A stretch of DNA of 6,946 bases. Origin: an uncultured Bacteroidota bacterium. GTDB lineage: Bacteria; Bacteroidota; Bacteroidia; Chitinophagales; Chitinophagaceae. Both the position numbers and the translations under genes were made by a program. The DNA is taken from contig CAMLEX010000266.1 of the NCBI GenBank assembly GCA_946479055.1, forward strand, positions 1-6,946, given 5' to 3'. Below, in pieces: positions 462-6,487 of this stretch (its first letter is position 1; the number at the start of each line of letters is the position of its first letter). The notes beneath the pieces were generated by a model, which searched no databases, had not been told where the DNA came from, and was given only the letters and a program-made list of their open reading frames with translations.

Positions 462-549
462 GCAATAGGCAATTGACAATTTGCAAAGTTTCCACAGGCT
501 GTAGTGTCTGTTGTTTATTGCATATTGCATATTGTCTATTGTCCATTGT
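462..549. repeat. Inverted heptanucleotide repeat, word RCAATNN
   Basis: On the plus strand 462-489 reads as heptads GCAATAG, GCAATTG, ACAATTT, GCAAAGT. On the minus strand 549-508 reads as six heptads ACAATGG, ACAATAG, ACAATAT, GCAATAT, GCAATAA, ACAACAG. The two blocks face each other: 462-486 pairs with 518-542 at 19 of 25 positions, with a loop of about 31 bases. The hairpin begins 7 bases past the ccmD stop, so it could end or stabilise that transcript. No clear T-run follows it on the minus strand, so it is called a repeat rather than a terminator. Confidence 0.75.
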
Positions 550-555
550 ATATCG

Positions 556-777
556 TTATTGTTCTTTTTCCAGCTTACTCATCTTCTTGTCTAATCTTAC
601 TAAGTATAAAATCAGACCAAATAAGATGGTAAGGATAACAGCGATCACCACATAAATCCGACCGCTGCTGCGCATCGTTTCTCCAAAAGCGGTGTTGGCT
701 GTTCCTTCCTGTGCCTGAACATAGATTGTAGTCAGCAATAATAGTAAAAGTGAAAGTATGGTTCTGATCTTTTGCAT
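556..777 (-). CDS. ccmD: CcmD family protein (small cytochrome c maturation membrane protein)
   Basis: A 73-residue protein from the ATG at 777. A longer reading from a TTG at 798 would add seven lysine-rich residues before what is already a complete signal peptide, so the ATG is preferred. Residues 1-22 form a signal peptide (basic MQKIR, a leucine-rich core, then VQA-Q). A short periplasmic linker leads to one transmembrane helix at about 40-60, followed by the charged tail RLDKKMSKLEKEQ. A single helix plus a short charged cytoplasmic tail is the CcmD pattern. In the classical system CcmD helps release haem-loaded CcmE from the CcmABC complex. The gene follows ccmC by 46 bases on the same strand, which is the main support for the name because sequence conservation in this family is low. 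The signal peptide ahead of the helix is typical of Bacteroidota CcmD-family proteins. Confidence 0.82.
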   Translation of the reverse strand: MQKIRTILSLLLLLLTTIYVQAQEGTANTAFGETMRSSGRIYVVIAVILTILFGLILYLVRLDKKMSKLEKEQ

Positions 778-795
778 CTTTATTTTTTTTGAAGG

Positions 796-823
796 CAACT
801 GCCAGTTTCTTATTGCTATTTGT
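796..823 (-). repeat. Short heptanucleotide repeat between ccmC and ccmD
   Basis: Read on the minus strand, 823-796 divides into ACAAATA, GCAATAA, GAAACTG, GCAGTTG. The first two match the RCAANNN word seen at 462-549. The opening ACAAATAGCAA is identical to the start of the block inside waaA at 5428-5418. It begins directly after the ccmC stop codon. Only four units, two of them degenerate, so the call is tentative on its own. Confidence 0.4.
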
Positions 824-1537
824 TTATGACATTAGCTTTTTTTCTTTCAATAAATTCAACCGGATCTTTAACGTGGTGATCCATACGCCAAGCAATGTCC
901 ATCCGATAACAGCCGGATAAAAAACTACCCGCATTCCGGCATCAATATCTTTATAATTCATCGCGGGGTTTCCTTCCTGGCCTGGATGCAGGCTGGGTAA
1001 TATGCGTGGCACTATCCAGATAGATGGAAACAACATCGCAAAAGCGAAAATATTATATACAGCACTGATCCTTGCTCTTTTGTCTATATCAGTAATGGAA
1101 TCCCGCAATACAAGATAGGCGGCATAGATCAGCAAAGCAATAGCGGCCCCAATCAGCTTTGGTTCCCTGGCAAGAGCACCAAAGGAATCAAATGCCGGAT
1201 TGTTGGGATCGGCCCAGGTATAACTCATCCAGATAGCCCCGGTGGCATAACCCAGCACACCAAACAAAATACCTACTACCGCATATTGGCGGGAGTAAAT
1301 ATCATATTTATGATTCAGTGTACGCAGATAGCGGATAGCATTTACTACTGAGATTGTAAATAATATCATCATGGCAAACCACATGCAAACATGGAAATAC
1401 AAATTGCGGATGGTTTCTTCCAAAGCGGGAAGTTGCGGGATCTTGAATAAAAGGCCTGCAATGATAGTATACACCAGCAGGATAACGCTTAATATCTTCC
1501 ACCAGGATTTATACATATAATTTTTTTCGTTGGCCAT
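824..1537 (-). CDS. ccmC: Cytochrome c maturation protein CcmC / CcsA-type haem-handling protein
   Basis: A 237-residue integral membrane protein with six hydrophobic segments, close to the usual CcmC length. CcmC binds haem at the outer face of the inner membrane and passes it to the chaperone CcmE for attachment to c-type apocytochromes. Two histidines expected to be axial haem ligands are visible: H49 in NLYFHV, and H184 in SLHPG. The C-terminal RVVFYPAVIGW and IDKRARISAVYNIFAF segments also fit Bacteroidota CcmC. The oddity is the periplasmic loop after TGAIW (99-103). The family's tryptophan-rich WGxxWxWDxR motif is not there; instead the protein reads YTWADPNNP followed by a loop to REPKLIGAA (about 106-132). 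The ATG at 1537 is used; an ATG at codon 8 is also possible. A perfect -7 box lies about 40 bases upstream, so it may have its own promoter apart from ccmB. Confidence 0.92.
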   Translation of the reverse strand: MANEKNYMYKSWWKILSVILLVYTIIAGLLFKIPQLPALEETIRNLYFHVCMWFAMMILFTISVVNAIRYLRTLNHKYDIYSRQYAVVGILFGVLGYATGAIWMSYTWADPNNPAFDSFGALAREPKLIGAAIALLIYAAYLVLRDSITDIDKRARISAVYNIFAFAMLFPSIWIVPRILPSLHPGQEGNPAMNYKDIDAGMRVVFYPAVIGWTLLGVWITTLKIRLNLLKEKKLMS

Positions 1538-1576
1538 GGTTCGTTATTCTATTTGAAGCTGGTAGATAAAGTGCAG

Positions 1577-1584
1577 CAAAATTA
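1577..1584 (-). promoter_or_regulatory. Putative ccmC promoter, Bacteroidota -7 box
   Basis: The minus strand reads TAATTTTG, an exact match to the Bacteroidota consensus TAnnTTTG, ending 39 bases before the ccmC ATG. This predicts a leader of about 30 bases. No TTG-type -33 element was found at the usual spacing, so the call rests on the -7 box and its position. Confidence 0.45.
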
Positions 1585-1719
1585 AGGTGGTGCTTTTAAT
1601 CCGTCCTAATTTTTCGCAAACTATTAATAATAACCTGCGGGCTTCATATTTTGTTTGAAAATTATTTTACAAATAGATTTTTTTCAAGAAAAACGGAAAA
1701 AGGTTAGTAGTTATAAAAC

Positions 1720-1796
1720 GTGAGTTGTCAAGTGAATGGTGAGTTTATCCCGCAAAGAATAGTTTCCACTCACAACTGCCTGCTCACAATTCACTT
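1720..1796. repeat. Inverted heptanucleotide repeat, word GTGANNN, downstream of ccmB
   Basis: On the minus strand 1794-1767 reads as heptads GTGAATT, GTGAGCA, GGCAGTT, GTGAGTG. The plus strand at 1720-1743 carries related words (GTGAGTT, GTGAATG, GTGAGT), less strictly phased. The arms 1730-1743 and 1783-1796 are complementary at 13 of 14 positions around a 39-base loop. The structure starts 29 bases past the ccmB stop and is followed on the minus strand by a short T-run (CGTTTTA), so it may end the ccmB transcript. Confidence 0.65.
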
Positions 1797-1825
1797 AAAA
1801 TACGGCAATCACACTTAACATGACA

Positions 1826-2440
1826 TTAGTCCTTCCATAAAAAAGGAAAAAGGATAACAGCCAGCAGGATCACCATTATATCCAATGCAATCAACAACAA
1901 TATCGTGCTTGCTTTTATGGTCAATACCGGGTTGAAAGCAGCATTGGAAAGCTGCATCAGTAAGATCAATTGCGGAATAATAAGCGGAAAGCCCAACACC
2001 GCCATGATAGCTGCATTCTGCTGTGCCCTGGCTGCAATAGCCGCTAAAAAAGTAAAGATCAGGCTAAGGCTCCACCCGCCTAATAATACCAAGCCGATAA
2101 ACGCTCCGGCTTTTACCATGGGGTTGCCAAGAAATAAACTGAAAAGAAATAAGCTCAGCAAGCTCATGATCAGCATCAGCAAGGAATTAAACAACAACTT
2201 GGCCAGTACAAAATGGCCGGGCGATGCGATTGAATAGAAATAAAGCATTCTTCCCTTGCTTTCCTGTAAAAAACTTTTAGCCACCGCATTGATGCAAATA
2301 AACAATTGGATCACCCAGAACAAACCGTTCCATACTTTACTTTCAGGTTCATCAATGGCCATGAATAAAACAAAAATAGTAGCGCCAATGTAAAGCAGGA
2401 TGCCATAAAAGCTATATTGTTGCCTTATTTCAAGTAACAA
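1826..2440 (-). CDS. ccmB: Haem exporter protein CcmB (ABC transporter membrane subunit)
   Basis: CcmB is the membrane partner of the ATPase CcmA in the complex that, with CcmC and CcmD, drives release of haem-loaded CcmE. From the TTG at 2440 the product is 204 residues, with about six hydrophobic helices. Family features are VWNGLFWVIQLF near the second helix, the stretch AKSFLQESKGRMLYFYSIASP, the LGGWSLSLIFTFLAAIAARA segment, and the LGFPLIIPQLIL helix. It ends FLWKD. The coordinates use the first conventional start. However, the open frame continues to a TAA at 2495-2497, and the upstream codons encode RIFTLFKKDLLLEIRQQ, which matches the normal CcmB N-terminus. The true protein therefore probably starts at a non-standard codon such as ATA at 2464 (212 residues) or ATC at 2482 (218 residues). 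No ccmA is visible in the window. Confidence 0.92.
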   Translation of the reverse strand: MLLEIRQQYSFYGILLYIGATIFVLFMAIDEPESKVWNGLFWVIQLFICINAVAKSFLQESKGRMLYFYSIASPGHFVLAKLLFNSLLMLIMSLLSLFLFSLFLGNPMVKAGAFIGLVLLGGWSLSLIFTFLAAIAARAQQNAAIMAVLGFPLIIPQLILLMQLSNAAFNPVLTIKASTILLLIALDIMVILLAVILFPFLWKD

Positions 2441-2501
2441 ATCCTTTTTGAACAGGGTGAATATGCGATGAACCGATCCGATGGCGAATTTATTTTATAT
2501 G

Positions 2502-2509
2502 CGAAAATA
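2502..2509 (-). promoter_or_regulatory. Possible ccmB -7 box
   Basis: The minus strand reads TATTTTCG, matching TAnnTTTG at seven of the eight positions. A transcript from here would begin near 2495, just inside the TAA that bounds the ccmB frame. That fits initiation at one of the non-standard codons between 2494 and 2441. No -33 element was identified. Confidence 0.25.
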
Positions 2510-2527
2510 ATACTTAATACCAGCCAG

Positions 2528-2535
2528 TAATTTTC
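2528..2535 (+). promoter_or_regulatory. Possible -7 box for the 2563 lipoprotein gene
   Basis: TAATTTTC matches TAnnTTTG at seven of eight positions and lies 27 bases before the ATG at 2563. A second near-match, TATTTTG, follows at 2536-2542. The 122-base gap from 2441 to 2562 must hold the promoters of both divergent genes. Confidence 0.25.
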
Positions 2536-2562
2536 TATTTTGCCGGCTAATAAATTTATGCG

Positions 2563-3471
2563 ATGAAAAGATTGACCTTATTGGTGCTTGTTATAATTAC
2601 TACGATAACGATAACAACTATTTATTCCTGCAAGAATTCCAAAACGTCCACTGGCAAAGTATTAAAGTTTAACCTGGAAAAGGGGAAAGGCTATGACTAT
2701 GAAATTCTTTGGGATTTAGATCAGCAGATGATGGGACAGAATAATAAAATCACCATATTGGGTGGCTATGCAGTAAATGTGGTAGATGAAAAAGATAATA
2801 TTAAAACATTGACCGCAGTATATACGAATTTTAAAATGTATATGAACTTTATGGGTATGGAGATAAAAGTGGATACCGATAAGCCATCAGAACCCATGGA
2901 CGCAGCGGAAATAAAAGCAAATCCATTAGGAATGATGGACCGGGTATTTGCAGGTATTAAAGGAAAAGAGTTTACGATGAAAGTGAATGAAGAAGGAAAA
3001 GTGCTTGAAGTAAGTGGATTTGATCAAATAATCAAAGGGATGGTAGATTCAATAGCAATGGATGAAGACACAAAAATGCAGGTAAGAGCGTCTTTGCAAG
3101 ACCAGTTCAATGAACAGGCTGTTAAGGACCAGTTTGGACAGGTATTTACAATTTTTCCCAGTAAAGAAATAAAAGTGGGTGATAGCTGGGAAAAAATTTT
3201 GCAAATGGGAGGAAGGATGCCGGCCCGATTCACAACTAAGTACACAGTAAAAGAAATAGAAGGTGATCATGTATCCTTATCGGCTCAAACCAATATCGGA
3301 TCTGGTAATAGTGATATGGAAATAAAAGGCACTCAACATGGCAGTTTACTGGTTGATAGTAAAACAGGATTGGTGATCAATGCGGAGTTTGACCAGGATA
3401 TGGAAACTAAATCCCAGGGCATGGAGATAAAAATAATCGGTAAAGGAAGCATCAAAGGAAAAGCGAGATAG
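2563..3471 (+). CDS. Predicted lipoprotein, DUF6263-like
   Basis: 302 residues from an ATG preceded by no Shine-Dalgarno sequence. Residues 1-22 are a lipoprotein signal (MKR, then a hydrophobic run rich in T, I and V) ending in IYS-C, so C23 is the likely lipidated cysteine and the mature protein begins CKNSK. The rest is soluble and predicted mostly beta: KVLKFNLEKGKGYDYEILW opens the mature domain, and FPSKEIKVGDSWEK (about 200-213) resembles the conserved VGDSW segment of the DUF6263 group of Bacteroidota lipoproteins. Methionine is frequent (for example KMYMNFMGMEIKV). The function of that group is not known to me. It lies between divergent ccmB and convergent thymidine kinase, so it is a single-gene unit and the neighbours do not suggest a role. 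Lipoprotein status is well supported; the family name is from memory of the motif. Confidence 0.85.
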   Translation: MKRLTLLVLVIITTITITTIYSCKNSKTSTGKVLKFNLEKGKGYDYEILWDLDQQMMGQNNKITILGGYAVNVVDEKDNIKTLTAVYTNFKMYMNFMGMEIKVDTDKPSEPMDAAEIKANPLGMMDRVFAGIKGKEFTMKVNEEGKVLEVSGFDQIIKGMVDSIAMDEDTKMQVRASLQDQFNEQAVKDQFGQVFTIFPSKEIKVGDSWEKILQMGGRMPARFTTKYTVKEIEGDHVSLSAQTNIGSGNSDMEIKGTQHGSLLVDSKTGLVINAEFDQDMETKSQGMEIKIIGKGSIKGKAR

Positions 3472-3474
3472 CTG

Positions 3475-3495
3475 AAGTCGGAGGTCAGAAGTCGG
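3475..3495 (+). repeat. Three heptads, word ARGTCRG
   Basis: AAGTCGG, AGGTCAG, AAGTCGG in exact 7-base register, starting 3 bases after the lipoprotein stop codon. The block matches the minus strand of 6154-6174 inside waaA at 19 of 21 positions, including the identical run GTCAGAAGTCGGAA. It sits just ahead of the larger hairpin at 3506-3594. Confidence 0.7.
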
Positions 3496-3505
3496 AACGA
3501 AAAAT

Positions 3506-3594
3506 TTGAACATTGAGCATTGAAAATTGGATATTGAACATTTTCTTAAGAGCTGGAAAAGTTCAATGCTCAACACTCAATTTTCAATGTTCAA
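3506..3594. terminator. Large heptad-built hairpin between convergent genes, probable two-way terminator
   Basis: Arms 3506-3539 and 3561-3594 are complementary at 26 of 34 positions around a 21-base loop. Each arm is five heptads of the form TTGNNNA: TTGAACA, TTGAGCA, TTGAAAA, TTGGATA, TTGAACA on the plus strand and TTGAACA, TTGAAAA, TTGAGTG, TTGAGCA, TTGAACT on the minus strand. All eight mismatches fall in variable positions of the heptad. It lies between the 3' ends of the lipoprotein gene and thymidine kinase. On the minus strand the hairpin is followed by AAATTTTT, which suits termination of thymidine kinase; on the plus side there is no T-run. Confidence 0.65.
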
Positions 3595-3615
3595 CAAAGA
3601 AATAATTTGATATAG

Positions 3616-4185
3616 TCACACTTTCTCGTTATAACAAACCCTGCATCTTGGCTCATAAACATCCGTTGCGCCAAGCATAACCTGGTCTTCATTAGGAATT
3701 TTTCGGTAAGAATAATTGGCGATATGTCCACATTTTACGCAAATAGCATGAAGTTTGGTCACATAATCGGCTTTTGCCATAATAAAAGGCATCTGACCAA
3801 AAGGTTTCCCGGTAAAATCCATATCAAGGCCTGCAACAATAACCCGGATACCATTATAAGCTAATTGATCACAAACATTGGGCAATTCATCATCAAAAAA
3901 CTGGGCTTCGTCAATGCCGATCACATCTACATCCTGTGCCATCAGCAATATCTTTTGCGAATTATCAATAGGTGTAGACTGGATAACATTGGTATCATGC
4001 GATATGATCTTTATTTCATCATAACGAATATCAAGAGCAGGTTTAAAAATTTCAACTTTCAGGTTGGCGATCTTCACTCTTTTTAACCGGCGGATCAGTT
4101 CTTCGGTCTTTCCGCTGAACATGGAACCACAGATTACTTCTATCCATCCGCGGCGTTCTCCCCGTATATTGGGTTCAATAAACAT
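3616..4185 (-). CDS. tdk: Thymidine kinase (type II)
   Basis: 189 residues, a normal length for bacterial thymidine kinase. It phosphorylates thymidine to dTMP with ATP in the cytoplasm, the salvage route to dTTP. Motifs are complete: P-loop GSMFSGKT at 20-27, the Walker B/catalytic segment GIDEAQFF at 90-97 with E93 as the likely catalytic base, [12 protein letters not shown] at 119-130 leading to the lasso region, and a structural zinc site made of C149/C152 (CVKC) and C181/C184 (CRVC). The ATG at 4185 gives a short N-terminal extension before the [13 protein letters not shown] strand, as in other Bacteroidota enzymes. It is transcribed alone, divergent from the 4365 gene and convergent with the lipoprotein gene. 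Confidence 0.97.
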
Positions 4186-4245
4186 TGTTAAGATTTTTTT
4201 CTGGGACTCAAAATCAATTTATTGGCAAACTGTTTGTAATTTTAA

Positions 4246-4351
4246 GAGCGCTGATTTGATGGGTTAAACAGATTGCACACATCGTTTCCGGAGTTATATG
4301 TAATAATAAAGGTATCAGTTAAATTATTTTAATCAATTTTAATCAGCGCTC
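4246..4351. repeat. Inverted repeat in the tdk/4365 divergent gap
   Basis: GAGCGCTGATT at 4246-4256 is perfectly complementary to AATCAGCGCTC at 4341-4351, with 84 bases between. The right arm ends a tandem decamer, TTTTAATCAA (4327-4336) and TTTTAATCAG (4337-4346). The repeat lies between two divergent starts, so it is not a terminator. It may carry regulatory sites for both genes or be an element with terminal inverted repeats. No clear 7-base period is seen here, unlike the other gaps. Confidence 0.55.
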
Positions 4352-4364
4352 CAAAAGTAGCAAA

Positions 4365-5042
4365 ATGGAACGAATAGAAGTCTTGATATCCAAATTAAAC
4401 GAGCAGTTTAAACAGAAAGCCACTCCTGAGCAAATGCTCTTCACCCTGCAGCTTCTGCAAAATGAACTGACCACACATCAACAGGAAAAAAGAACACTGG
4501 GCACCTCTAAGGTATCTGTTGTAATGCCTACGGTAATGAATGTTGATCCCTCTCAATATGAAAAATATGCACCAAAGCCAGTGGAGAAACAACCTATACA
4601 GGAAATAAAAGAAAAAGTATTGGTTGATGAAGAATCTGTTTCCATAGTACAGGAAAACGGGCAATTGGACATGGTGTTTGATCCGCTGGTGGAAATACCG
4701 ACCTTATCACACCAGGGAAAAAATAAGCAAGGCGGGCTGCCCGAATCGCTGAATGACAAATTAAAACAAGGAAGAGCTGAATGGGTGGAAGTTTTAAAGG
4801 AAACACCGATAAAAGATCTTCGTAAAGCTATTGGCATCAACGACAGGTTTTTATTTATCAATGATCTTTTCCGTGGAGATGAAGTTATGTATGAACGGAG
4901 TATAAAAACCATCAATAGTTTTAACATTTACCCCGAAGCGGAATATTGGATCAGCCGTGAATTGAAAACAAAATTAGGATGGGATACTGAGCTTCCGGTG
5001 GTATTGCAGTTTGATCAGTTGGTTAAAAGACGTTTCTCCTGA
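4365..5042 (+). CDS. Conserved hypothetical protein
   Basis: 225 residues from the ATG at 4365; no signal peptide or membrane segment, so cytoplasmic. Three parts can be seen. Residues 1-45 are charged and helical, probably a coiled coil (ISKLNEQFKQK, LFTLQLLQNELTTHQQEK). Residues about 50-128 are a low-complexity linker rich in P, K, E and V. Residues about 129-225 form a compact domain containing PIKDLRKAIGINDRFLFIND and then LFRGDEVMYERSIKTIN. I recognise the DLRKAIGINDRFLF segment as recurring in uncharacterised Bacteroidota proteins but know no function for it. The last 28 bases overlap the end of waaA on the other strand. The gene is divergent from tdk with a 179-base gap. A structural or regulatory adaptor role is only a guess from the coiled coil plus small domain layout. 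Confidence 0.85.
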   Translation: MERIEVLISKLNEQFKQKATPEQMLFTLQLLQNELTTHQQEKRTLGTSKVSVVMPTVMNVDPSQYEKYAPKPVEKQPIQEIKEKVLVDEESVSIVQENGQLDMVFDPLVEIPTLSHQGKNKQGGLPESLNDKLKQGRAEWVEVLKETPIKDLRKAIGINDRFLFINDLFRGDEVMYERSIKTINSFNIYPEAEYWISRELKTKLGWDTELPVVLQFDQLVKRRFS

Positions 5043-6304
5043 ATGTATTTCATTATTTTTTCTGTAGCGCCTTTATTTGAGTACACATAACCCTTTGATT
5101 TCTCACTACTTTTTATATATGCTGAATCGTCCCGAATCAATTTTTGAATTTCGGAAATGCAGTCTTCAGCATTATTTATACTGACAGCTCCTCCATTATT
5201 GACAAGATCAATAGCTTCATTGAACTTATGGTATGCTGGTCCGAATAAAATGGGTTTTCCATAGACAGCAGCTTCCAGCGTATTATGTATTCCTTTCCCA
5301 AAACCGCCACCGATATAAGTAATGGTGGCATACTTATACAACCGGGACAACATGCCAATATTATCAATAATGAGAATGTTGCTGGTTGCCTGTTGTTCGT
5401 CTATTGCCAATTGCCGGTTGCTATTTGTCAGTTCTGAAAATAAAATTGAATCAGGAAATAGCTTTTGAACGTGTGCAATATGTTCTTTATTTATTTCATG
5501 CGGTGCAACAATAAACTTTAGTGAAGGATCATTAATAGTCTTCAATGTTTTTTGCAATACTTCTTCATCTTCAGGCCAGGTGCTGCCGGCTACGATGGTT
5601 TTGCTGTTGCCAACAAATTTTTCAATAGCTGGTATTGCGGTGAAGCTTTTCGCAATTTCAATCACCCTGTCGAAACGGGTATCACCACAAACGCTGCTCT
5701 TATCTGTAAAACCTATATTGTCCAGCAGGCTTTTTGATATTTCATTTTGAACAAATAAATGATCAAAGAAAGAAAGCATTTTTCGTTGCAAACCTCCATA
5801 CCATTTAAAGAATATTGAATTTTTCCGGAACAAAGCCGATATTAATAAAAGAGGAACCTTGTTTTGTTTTATACTTTTTAGGTAATAATACCAAAACTCA
5901 TACTTTACAAATATTACCAATGATGGATTTATTATTTTCAAAAAACGTTTTGCATTCTTCGGGCCATCCATCGGAAGGTAAAAAACCCAATCAGCCCCCT
6001 GATAATTTTTCCTGATCTCATAACCTGATGGGGAAAAAAAAGTCAGTAATATCTTGAGCTCAAAGCCTTGTGCCCTGAGCCTTTCAATGACAGGTCTTCC
6101 CTGTTCAAATTCTCCCAAAGAAGCACAATGGACCCAAATAATCCTTAAATCTTCCGACTTCTGACTTCCGATTTTGGACTCTAATGCTTGCCATATGCCG
6201 TCCCGGCCCTGTACCCACTTTTTTGCCTTAGCATTAAAAAGTGCCGCTATACGTATACTTGCTTTGAATAGTATAAGAAAAATATTATATAAAAACAGTC
6301 CCAA
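5015..6304 (-). CDS. waaA: 3-deoxy-D-manno-octulosonic acid (Kdo) transferase
   Basis: A GT30-family, GT-B-fold enzyme that transfers Kdo from CMP-Kdo to the lipid A precursor at the cytoplasmic face of the inner membrane. From a TTG at 6304 it has 429 residues. Residues about 2-20 (GLFLYNIFLILF) are the membrane anchor. Family motifs in order are HCASLGEFEQGRP with the catalytic Glu of SLGE at about 65, FVKYEFWYYY, CGDTRFDRV, GSTWPEDEE, APHEI, DNIGMLSRLYKYA, and GGGFGKGIHNTLEAAVYGKP, which is the CMP-Kdo-binding region. The frame stays open to a TTG at 6352, but a -7 box at 6338-6345 lies inside that extension, so the later TTG is preferred. Two variable loops are made of intergenic-type heptad repeats (6154-6174 and 5401-5428). 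It is convergent with and overlaps the 4365 gene. Confidence 0.94.
   Translation of the reverse strand: MGLFLYNIFLILFKASIRIAALFNAKAKKWVQGRDGIWQALESKIGSQKSEDLRIIWVHCASLGEFEQGRPVIERLRAQGFELKILLTFFSPSGYEIRKNYQGADWVFYLPMDGPKNAKRFLKIINPSLVIFVKYEFWYYYLKSIKQNKVPLLLISALFRKNSIFFKWYGGLQRKMLSFFDHLFVQNEISKSLLDNIGFTDKSSVCGDTRFDRVIEIAKSFTAIPAIEKFVGNSKTIVAGSTWPEDEEVLQKTLKTINDPSLKFIVAPHEINKEHIAHVQKLFPDSILFSELTNSNRQLAIDEQQATSNILIIDNIGMLSRLYKYATITYIGGGFGKGIHNTLEAAVYGKPILFGPAYHKFNEAIDLVNNGGAVSINNAEDCISEIQKLIRDDSAYIKSSEKSKGYVYSNKGATEKIMKYIQEKRLLTN
5401..5428 (-). repeat. Heptanucleotide repeat block inside waaA, word RCAAYNN
   Basis: On the coding strand of waaA this reads ACAAATA, GCAACCG, GCAATTG, GCAATAG in exact 7-base register. 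GCAATTG and GCAATAG are the same heptads found at 462-475, and ACAAATAGCAA is identical to the block at 823-813. It encodes TNSNRQLAID, part of a stretch between FSEL and the conserved LIIDNIGML motif. Position 461-480 and the minus strand of 5422-5403 agree at 17 of 20 bases. Confidence 0.6.
6154..6174 (-). repeat. Heptanucleotide repeat block inside waaA, word ARGTCRG
   Basis: On the coding strand this reads AAATCGG, AAGTCAG, AAGTCGG: three heptads, 21 bases, seven codons, frame preserved. It encodes the core of SKIGSQKSED in the loop between the N-terminal helix region and the strand leading to HCASLGE. It matches the intergenic block at 3475-3495 at 19 of 21 positions, 2.7 kb away. Confidence 0.65.
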
Positions 6305-6337
6305 AACATTGATTTTAAACCGGTACCTACCGGGAAG

Positions 6338-6345
6338 CAAAAGTA
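6338..6345 (-). promoter_or_regulatory. Putative waaA promoter, Bacteroidota -7 box
   Basis: The minus strand reads TACTTTTG, an exact match to TAnnTTTG, ending 33 bases before the TTG at 6304. The predicted transcript start near 6331 leaves a leader of about 27 bases and lies downstream of the alternative TTG at 6352, which it therefore argues against. No -33 element was recognised. Confidence 0.45.
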
Positions 6346-6352
6346 AAGTCAA

Positions 6353-6369
6353 ACGGGGAAACTACCCGT
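6353..6369. promoter_or_regulatory. Small palindrome between two divergent -7 boxes
   Basis: ACGGG (6353-6357) and CCCGT (6365-6369) form a 5-base inverted repeat around a 7-base spacer, located between the waaA -7 box and the -7 box facing degT. A second palindrome, CCGGTA-CC-TACCGG, lies at 6320-6333 around the predicted waaA transcript start. Either could be an operator, but arms this short also arise by chance. Confidence 0.25.
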
Positions 6370-6376
6370 ATTTTAC

Positions 6377-6384
6377 TATTTTTG
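6377..6384 (+). promoter_or_regulatory. Putative promoter for the DegT-family gene, -7 box
   Basis: TATTTTTG matches TAnnTTTG exactly. The transcript would start near 6391 and have a leader of about 97 bases before the ATG at 6488. No -33 TTG is present at the usual distance. Confidence 0.4.
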
Positions 6385-6400
6385 CGCGGCCTGAAGGAAA

Positions 6401-6427
6401 TCAGGTTCAAAAGTCAAAAATCAGGTA
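6401..6427 (+). repeat. Short heptad-spaced repeat in the degT leader, word TCAAANN
   Basis: TCAAAAG (6407-6413), TCAAAAA (6414-6420) and TCAGGTA (6421-6427) follow in 7-base steps, preceded by TCAGGT at 6401. It is short and A-rich, so weaker than the other blocks, but it shares their period and intergenic position. Confidence 0.35.
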
Positions 6428-6487
6428 CACTTATTGGCTGACTTTTATGCTTATTCAAGAAATAAATACTATAAAATTCTTTCTTTG

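Follow-up and report, generated by a model that had tools for sequence, protein, structure and literature searches.

Tandem heptanucleotides are well known in cyanobacteria, where the short tandemly repeated heptanucleotides (STRR) occur as several words per genome and are named by those particular words; their definition is not known to include facing pairs or a polarity. Repetitive extragenic palindromes and bacterial interspersed mosaic elements (REP/BIME) are likewise dispersed, intergenic and hairpin-forming, and have a fixed family sequence. In this study, we analyzed a 6,946-nt stretch of DNA (hereafter the window) from an uncultured Chitinophagaceae bacterium of the phylum Bacteroidota (assembly GCA_946479055.1, contig CAMLEX010000266.1), in which arrays of seven-base repeats lie at gene borders. 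We found that arrays of this kind recur in related genomes with the same step, a facing layout and a purine polarity, while the word that is repeated differs between species at the same place.

Rehm et al. (2015; PMC4692102) described GGGAATC and GGGGA(C/T)T heptamers in two xanthomonads and in Nostoc PCC 7120. According to the sections of that paper cited here, which also mention STRR, the repeats have the unit GGGANTN, with a conserved core and variable positions, and are mostly intergenic and rare between divergent genes. They form convergent pairs in 70 and 75 cases in the two xanthomonads, where the nearer gene lies on the 5' side of the G-rich strand (28 versus 160 nt). They were interpreted as quadruplexes, and no function was found. 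MacGregor (2015; PMC4679880) reported TAACTGA direct repeats in Beggiatoaceae, some cyanobacteria and five Bacteroidetes. In the sections cited here, these repeats are intergenic, occur in heptamer mixtures and show insertions and deletions in 7-nt increments between two close cyanobacteria; an inverted arrangement is noted once, in a Beggiatoaceae genome. They are defined by a single word, lie mostly in forward orientation upstream of start codons, and were read as a regulator binding site. Both papers cite Mrazek et al. (2007) for heptanucleotides as the most abundant class in most genomes and for polymerase slippage as a suggested cause of the number seven; in the cited passages that work is a repeat count, from which anatomy, polarity and word turnover are absent. 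Heptamer repeats have so far been reported word by word as separate stories, namely STRR as fingerprinting markers, GGGAATC as quadruplexes and TAACTGA as regulator sites. As a kind, they are already known; the word-independent anatomy and the word differences at orthologous places are new. In our search of the non-subscription literature, heptads of Bacteroidota arranged in facing pairs with varying words were not the subject of any paper listed.

To assess the window, the best lag-7 segment of each region was compared with 1000 dinucleotide shuffles of that region. No shuffle reached the score of the segment in the gap 416-555 (505-549), in the gap 3472-3615 (3506-3542) or at 6151-6174 inside waaA (a name that, like gdh, ccmC and tdk, we presume from the protein family). 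Weaker segments were found at 6407-6423 (9/1000 shuffles reached the score) and at 5403-5421 in waaA (16/1000). Wherever lag 7 was strong, lags 5, 6, 8, 9 and 10 were not significant; lag 10 was significant in the gap 4186-4364 (1/1000). Autocorrelation at lag 7 gave z 7.8 in the gap 416-555 and z 6.3 in the gap 3472-3615, and z -1.3 to 0.6 at lags 5, 6 and 8 in these two gaps. Tandem Repeats Finder reported period 7 at 511-562, 1840-1854, 3506-3542, 3561-3594 and 6151-6171.

The initial annotation had listed six blocks in 7-base steps, said to occupy most of the intergenic gaps and to recur inside waaA. The step is clear in the gaps 416-555 and 3472-3615 and weak at 6407-6423. Blocks 796-823 and 1720-1796 (gaps 778-823 and 1538-1825) were not significant on their own; autocorrelation at lag 7 was z 2.4 for the latter, and for the former z 2.8, about equal to the z 2.7 at lag 6. 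With two clear gaps and one weak gap among seven, the statement on most gaps was too strong; the recurrence inside waaA holds at both places named above, the one at 5403-5421 being weak. The period-7 signal in the window is thus real yet uneven, which confirms the annotation in part. It had missed the main anatomy, which is that 462-549, 1720-1796 and 3506-3594 are facing (inverted) arrays. The features are as follows.

462-490, plus strand: purine-rich arm (59% purine) of CAATNNN-like units, in the facing pair of the gdh-ccmD gap; hairpin 452-556, z -4.9.
505-549, minus strand: pyrimidine-rich arm of ATTGNNN units, the strongest period-7 segment of the window (lag-7 score 21.9, 0/1000 shuffles).
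796-823, minus strand: short run rich in pyrimidines, directly adjoining the ccmC stop; no significant period 7 when taken alone.
1719-1745, plus strand: purine-rich arm (GTGANNN) of the facing pair downstream of ccmB; period 7 weak.
1766-1797, minus strand: pyrimidine-rich arm, partner of 1719-1745 by inverted repeat.
3474-3495, plus strand: three AAGTCGG-like units, starting 2 nt past the DUF6263 stop codon; three near-copies seen directly.
3506-3543, plus strand: left arm (TTGAACA units) of the facing pair between two convergent genes; lag-7 segment 3506-3542, 0/1000 shuffles.
3557-3594, minus strand: right arm, partner of 3506-3543 by inverted repeat.
5395-5432, minus strand: heptad-like stretch in the variable WaaA loop near residue 305; lag-7 segment 5403-5421, 16/1000 shuffles, and loop alignment.
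6148-6180, minus strand: CTTCCGA-class heptads within the waaA coding sequence; lag-7 segment 6151-6174, 0/1000 shuffles, and Tandem Repeats Finder.
6401-6427, plus strand: TCAAAANN stretch in the divergent waaA-degT gap, period 7 weak; lag-7 segment 6407-6423, 9/1000 shuffles.

The array at 505-549 lies at most 7 nt from the ccmD stop codon. The arms 3506-3543 and 3557-3594 are complementary over 38 nt at 76% around a 13-nt loop, and the hairpin 3500-3600 folds with z -6.4. Downstream of ccmB, the inverted repeat 1730-1743/1783-1796 spans 14 nt at 93%, and the hairpin 1715-1800 reaches a fold z of only -1.6; the fold of 6385-6460 gave z -1.4. With arm limits set by hand, the purine share of the left and right arm was 59/35, 59/34 and 54/47% in the three pairs.

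The period was examined in nine pooled sets of DNA (3,987 kb, mostly Chitinophagaceae). Genes were called with a simple open reading frame (ORF) finder at a minimum of 80-90 amino acids, and very-low-complexity or N-containing arrays were removed before words and pairs were counted. In the pooled DNA, 216 arrays were found at lag 7, compared to 47 at lag 8, 21 at lag 9, 6 at lag 6, 3 each at lags 11 and 13, 2 at lag 10 and 1 at lag 5. The 80 loci (1,369 kb) held 55 arrays at lag 7, 12 at lag 8, 4 at lag 9 and 0 at lags 5, 6 and 10; Terrimonas ferruginea (G001, 396 kb) held 92 at lag 7, 18 at lag 8 and 0 at lags 5, 6 and 9-11; and Deminuibacter (G006, 400 kb) held 20 and 3 at lags 7 and 8. In a further genome of the phylum, G328, stretches picked around GTGAATN hits (90 kb) held 28 arrays at lag 7, 1 at lag 9 and 0 at lags 4-6, 8 and 10-13. 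After one dinucleotide shuffle per set, no array was found at lags 5-11, and 100 kb of E. coli K-12 contained none at lag 7. The counts were closer in G022 (373 kb; 4 at lag 7 versus 3 at lag 6), G018 (22 at lag 7, 12 at lag 9) and one mixed set (4 at lag 7, 5 at lag 8), and G012 (220 kb) had a single lag-7 array. The excess over shuffles and over periods 6 and 8, which the initial annotation had staked its proposal on, is therefore present in the pooled DNA and lacking in some small samples.

The same step was seen in the spacing of cores. Copies of GTGAAT were 7 nt apart 146 times, 8 nt apart 15 times, 6 nt apart once and 9-11 nt apart never; for TAAGTA, the counts were 81 at 7 nt, 6 at 8 nt, 3 at 6 nt and 1 at 10 nt. 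Two of the 12 cores, TTGAAC and CAATTG, had no 7-nt step in the pooled relatives despite resembling words of the window (TTGAAC, 7 nt once and 8 and 9 nt nine times each; CAATTG, 7 nt twice). Some period-8 arrays consist of a period-7 core plus one base (GTGAAT, TCAAA); arrays of period 8 lie at L094 14271-14330, L070 19904-19972 and L027 4807-4905. Variation within the unit sits in about two positions, since mean conservation in the two most variable columns was 0.54 and 0.69 in 125 arrays of at least 35 nt, and a random spread of mismatches would give 0.67 and 0.76. All 55 of the stronger G001 arrays were intergenic. With a looser score and shorter ORFs, 5/108 arrays in G001 and 28/68 in the 80 loci fell inside an ORF of at least 80 amino acids, spurious ORFs included. 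By their 7-nt excess over chance and over other lengths, and by their mostly intergenic position, the arrays belong to the general kind of prokaryotic heptanucleotide tandem repeats. A larger tandem repeat at L091 17065-17664 comprises about three copies of a unit (about 190 nt) that includes a heptad array.

At a score of at least 14, 238 arrays gave 92 consensus words, of which 75 occurred in one genome or locus, 11 in two and 6 in three to six (29 genomes or loci). Wobble variants of one core were scored as separate words, so there are fewer cores than words; 89 of the 92 join one chain by single-base changes, as a random set of this size would in part. Among 296 genomes drawn evenly across the phylum, three consecutive GTGAATN units were present in 16 and three GAAGTCN units in 10, G160 having both. 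The reversed control patterns were found too, in 8/296 (for GTGAATN) and 7/296 genomes (for GAAGTCN); since these controls were not empty, the reversed words are real words there as well. The reversed control TAAGTGN is another heptad word, in tandem in G048, G053, G160, G164, G186, G195, G221 and G237.

We compared the words at orthologous places. A lag-7 array with a score of at least 12 was present in 15/274 orthologous gaps, window included (by gap, 1/68, 0/72, 3/14, 0/11, 4/36, 3/36, 0/2 and 4/35), compared to 3 at lag 8 and 0 at lags 5 and 6; the ccmB-ccmC element of the window lies below this score and hence outside the 15. The ccmB-ccmC gap contains GCAGTCG in L003, a TTGTAGC-like word in L024, GGTCAGA in L022 and GTGANNN in the window. 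In the ccmD-gdh gap the words are RCAATNN (window), GGTACAA (L007, more than 20 units), TTGCCAA (L005) and TTCACNA (L024), and in the tdk-ccmB gap GTGAATC (L039), AGGCGGG (L005), GTGAATG (L056) and AAGTACG (L053). The WaaA loop near residue 305 is heptad-rich with differing words in the window, L003 and L006, as judged from an alignment of 78 of 81 proteins from which the L056 frame was left out; L056 is also heptad-rich there, placed by coordinates only. A two-domain ABC ATPase likewise has heptads in its linker, with differing words in L018/L021, L055 and L053. Related species thus have different words at one and the same orthologous gap or protein linker (two linkers), so it is the period that recurs, and the word is replaced over time. 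The suggestion of the initial annotation that the period rather than the word is the recurring trait is thus supported, also by the 92 words in 238 arrays. The arrays are not one dispersed element; neither are their words fully free or unrelated, given the dominance of two words in G001 and the single-base chain. The facing layout and the purine polarity recur as strongly as the period.

Polarity was scored in neighboring pairs, defined as arrays less than 250 nt apart and counted independently of ORFs, with purine class cut-offs of 0.52/0.48 (at 0.50, one extra pair, L106, is pyrimidine-left/purine-right). Of 82 pairs in the pooled DNA, 53 were purine-left/pyrimidine-right (RY), 1 was the reverse (YR), 13 were RR, 7 were YY and 8 had a neutral member. 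G328 added 10 RY and 1 YR in 11 pairs, so that the combined 93 pairs comprise 63 RY, 2 YR and 28 others (of type RR or YY, or including a neutral array). The RY pairs include two that are orthologous to others counted (L076 to L062, L021 to L018), and the three pairs of the window are absent from these counts because their arms fall under the score. Since RY is its own reverse complement, the choice of strand cannot produce its excess. Array-free gaps had no comparable purine bias, except a slight one between divergent genes (62% of 240), and a general purine polarity of gaps was ruled out on this ground.

The nearer gene lay on the 5' side of the purine strand in 85/99 arrays of G001 and in 28/39, 15/19 and 7/9 arrays elsewhere. 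At distances of up to 15 nt from a gene 3' end, the purine strand left the gene in 74 cases and entered it in 7; an array read through by an ORF was counted as inside, which may favor the stop-bearing orientation there. The counts were 28 versus 6 within 15 nt of a 5' end, and 21 versus 10 and 16 versus 7 beyond 60 nt. The orientation bias was 78:11 and 28:4 in arrays with stop or start codons, and 8:3 and 19:8 in arrays without them; because this weaker bias remains, three-frame stops were rejected as the sole cause of position and polarity. Usual protein ends are kept beside arrays in ccmB (L003, L022, L024), ccmD (L007, window) and tdk (L005, L027, L053), where the array begins a few bases from the stop; in L039, the array includes the tdk stop. 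The thymidine kinase of L010 carries a repeat-derived C-terminal tail, ESDKSDKSEV, which replaces the usual end.

The two arms of a pair often carry the same word. Outside G001 and G006, the word was the same, inverted, with 0-1 differences in 12/16 RY pairs, compared to 5-29% for random arms, and in G328 in 7/10 RY pairs (random, 17%). Close relatives differ in their arrays. In L062, L072 and L076 (86-88% identical), an element between convergent genes has a near-constant left arm and a right arm that varies in length and unit order, and its flanks form one conserved frame. In L007, the GGTACAA units are near-identical and are embedded, in the same phase, in older degenerate heptads, and a single array in L242 shifts from GAGGCGT to GTGAATA in phase. 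Around the gene adjoining a G001 array, 3.9 kb of G008, a congener of T. ferruginea, contained no lag-7 array (one place).

The observations to be explained are the period, the words, the facing pairs, the polarity, the position and the change in arm length between relatives. The reading we prefer, at somewhat under even confidence, is that these arrays are heptanucleotide minisatellites at gene borders maintained by mutation, with selection as a filter. As the generator we infer slippage together with template switching at hairpins, and as the filter the harm that an array causes. Slippage would lengthen and shorten arrays in steps of seven, sometimes eight, and a variant unit could overtake an array while the seven-base phase holds. 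Since such a takeover would leave the phase intact, the word would turn over and the period would stay. A facing arm could be copied from the other arm via the folded-back strand, and because of this copying both arms of a locus would have the same word. Arrays would persist where harm is small, as immediately behind a stop codon, within a short gap or in a protein linker that is variable, and selection on stop and start codons would filter their orientation near genes. In favor of this reading are the changes of arm length and unit order in L062/L072/L076, the in-phase young run in L007, the phase-keeping word change in L242, the same-word arms (12/16 and 7/10), the codon-dependent orientation bias, and the different words per species at one place. 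In addition, no candidate enzyme family tracked the arrays in searches for Y1_Tnp, RVT_1 and Ku.

Several findings weigh against mutational maintenance. Plain slippage does not predict a single step length or the 63 RY versus 2 YR pairs, and an orientation bias of 27:11 persists among arrays that contain neither stop nor start codons. A word common to both arms was found in 2/34 pairs in G001 (random, 27%) and in 0/3 pairs in G006 (random, 23%). Long near-perfect pairs are perhaps too unstable as palindromes in G001. Pairing of arms does not account for the facing layout in G001, whose arms carry different words. G001 is also dominated by two words (235 GTGAATN and 182 AAGTANT overlapping pattern hits), which calls for some spread between loci; AAGTANT occurred once each in 2/22 other genomes searched. 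The in-gene elements of L018 and L021 differ by substitutions only, and the GGGAATC-type repeats are described as lying in regions of increased genomic stability (PMC4692102, in the sections cited here). The number seven, the inward polarity, and the two-word arms and two-word spread of G001 would fit a dedicated mechanism better than plain slippage.

The strongest alternative is that the arrays are functional gene-border elements, which we consider possible at a confidence well short of even. Their hairpins or spacers would end transcripts from both sides, stabilize or separate messages, or catch readthrough, and the seven-base step would put stops in three frames. Many arrays begin at stop codons, the purine strand leaves the gene in the 74 to 7 ratio given above, the window hairpins fold with z -4.9 and -6.4, and pairs flank terminator-like palindromes in G001. 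However, an array is present in only 15/274 orthologous gaps, so the element is dispensable. Stop-free words exist (GGTACAA, GCAGTCG, and GGGAATC of Xanthomonas), arrays also lie within coding linkers, and the G001 arms are non-complementary.

We regard as rather improbable a dedicated end-processing or repeat-adding activity with a seven-base step and a telomerase-like outcome, in which purine-rich 3' ends would be extended at breaks and then joined, giving inward polarity with any word. The polarity resembles that of joined telomeres, the two sides carry different words in G001, and some bacterial reverse transcriptases use an RNA template to add tandem repeats, namely DRT10, with a 9-nt step in one system (PMC12632851, in the sections cited here). 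On the other hand, an RVT_1 match was absent from 8/12 genomes of unstated completeness, including G001 and G006 (the Pfam model can miss divergent enzymes), and Ku was present in 6/12. Palindromic cores lie between arrays and the arrays abut genes, whereas joined ends should meet each other. Reverse transcriptase and Ku were accordingly rejected as drivers, being missing from several array-bearing genomes (RVT_1 in 4/12, Ku in 6/12; divergent enzymes may escape).

It is also unlikely that the arrays are ends or remnants of a small transposable element of the miniature inverted-repeat or REP type, moved for example by a REP-associated tyrosine transposase (RAYT). Facing ends, dispersed copies and words repeated within one genome would agree with this, but the cores between arms vary and also occur alone, and no target duplication was seen, without a systematic search for one. 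Y1_Tnp was found in 27/36 genomes, with none in the array-bearing G016, G023, G024 and G026 and one marginal match in G001, the genome richest in arrays. Y1/RAYT transposase was rejected as the driver because its counts do not track the arrays, which do not belong to RAYT-moved REP, and one element with a fixed core was ruled out because cores differ and also stand alone. A dispersed palindrome around GTTCGTGTATACACGAAC in G001 is flanked by heptad arrays in some gaps and stands by itself in others (for example L090 11366, L091 8627, L098 13062, L101 9843).

G-quadruplex elements, as proposed for GGGAATC repeats, are very improbable here: the step, the facing pairs and the position relative to genes are the same as in the sections of PMC4692102 cited above, but only 7/238 arrays have GGG or CCC in the word (231/238 have no G-run) and a four-G-run pattern matched once, so quadruplexes cannot be the general reason and are refuted for most arrays. 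Chance or composition can practically be dismissed, since, although 2/6 of the blocks first listed are non-significant alone, one shuffle per set gave no arrays at lags 5-11 and the GTGAAT spacing (7 nt 146 times, 6 nt once, 9-11 nt never) refutes it for the pooled data.

Compared with REP/BIME, the arrays are alike in dispersal, intergenic site and hairpins; REP/BIME are not built of seven-base units. The parallel to cyanobacterial STRR drawn in the initial annotation is apt as to the kind of repeat and does not imply membership by word. The arrays share the seven-base step, the facing pairs and the purine- or G-rich strand leaving the nearer gene with the GGGAATC type of Rehm et al. They differ in that the latter has one G-rich word class per genome, whereas here many words occur, nearly all lacking G-runs, and words differ at orthologous places. 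With the TAACTGA repeats they share intergenic, mixed heptamers; the arrays here, in contrast, begin mostly at stop codons, and direct inspection of the window borders found no forward TAACTGA array just upstream of start codons.

Should the word be largely free, with step, layout and polarity recurring, the per-word stories explain the wrong thing, and the old question of the bacterial preference for seven becomes testable in a single genome very rich in arrays, that of T. ferruginea. We tentatively propose, as a possibility with the odds against it, that a word-blind process with a seven-base step works at the borders of genes across three or more bacterial phyla and builds facing, inward-purine arrays, STRR, GGGAATC, TAACTGA and the Bacteroidota words all being products of one conserved enzyme property. 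An example of such a property would be slippage or fold-back of a polymerase or end-processing enzyme on purine-rich nascent strands. The only cyanobacterial DNA examined was a Trichormus plasmid (200 kb), with five lag-7 arrays and no facing pair listed, and the cross-phylum claim therefore rests on the published Xanthomonas and Nostoc data. By creating new linkers in proteins such as WaaA, arrays are also a source of protein variation and of annotation errors.

The genes of the window are, in order, a Glu/Leu/Phe/Val dehydrogenase (partial), CcmD, a cytochrome c assembly protein, CcmB, a DUF6263 protein (by our reading a lipoprotein), thymidine kinase, a hypothetical protein (hyp) without a Pfam match, WaaA and a DegT aminotransferase (partial). 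The order degT-waaA-hyp-tdk-(DUF6263)-ccmB-ccmC-ccmD-gdh is retained wholly or largely in dozens of the 80 loci. By WaaA, the relatives of the window are mostly Chitinophagaceae; identity was 66% to Terrimonas pollutisoli (residues 13-445) and 68% to the metagenome-assembled genome L056 (best segment). An Rfam scan of the window gave 0 matches over the gathering score. The tdk-hyp gap of the window contains a 24-nt inverted repeat at 4233-4256/4341-4364 (79%) and a 10-nt direct repeat at 4326-4345.

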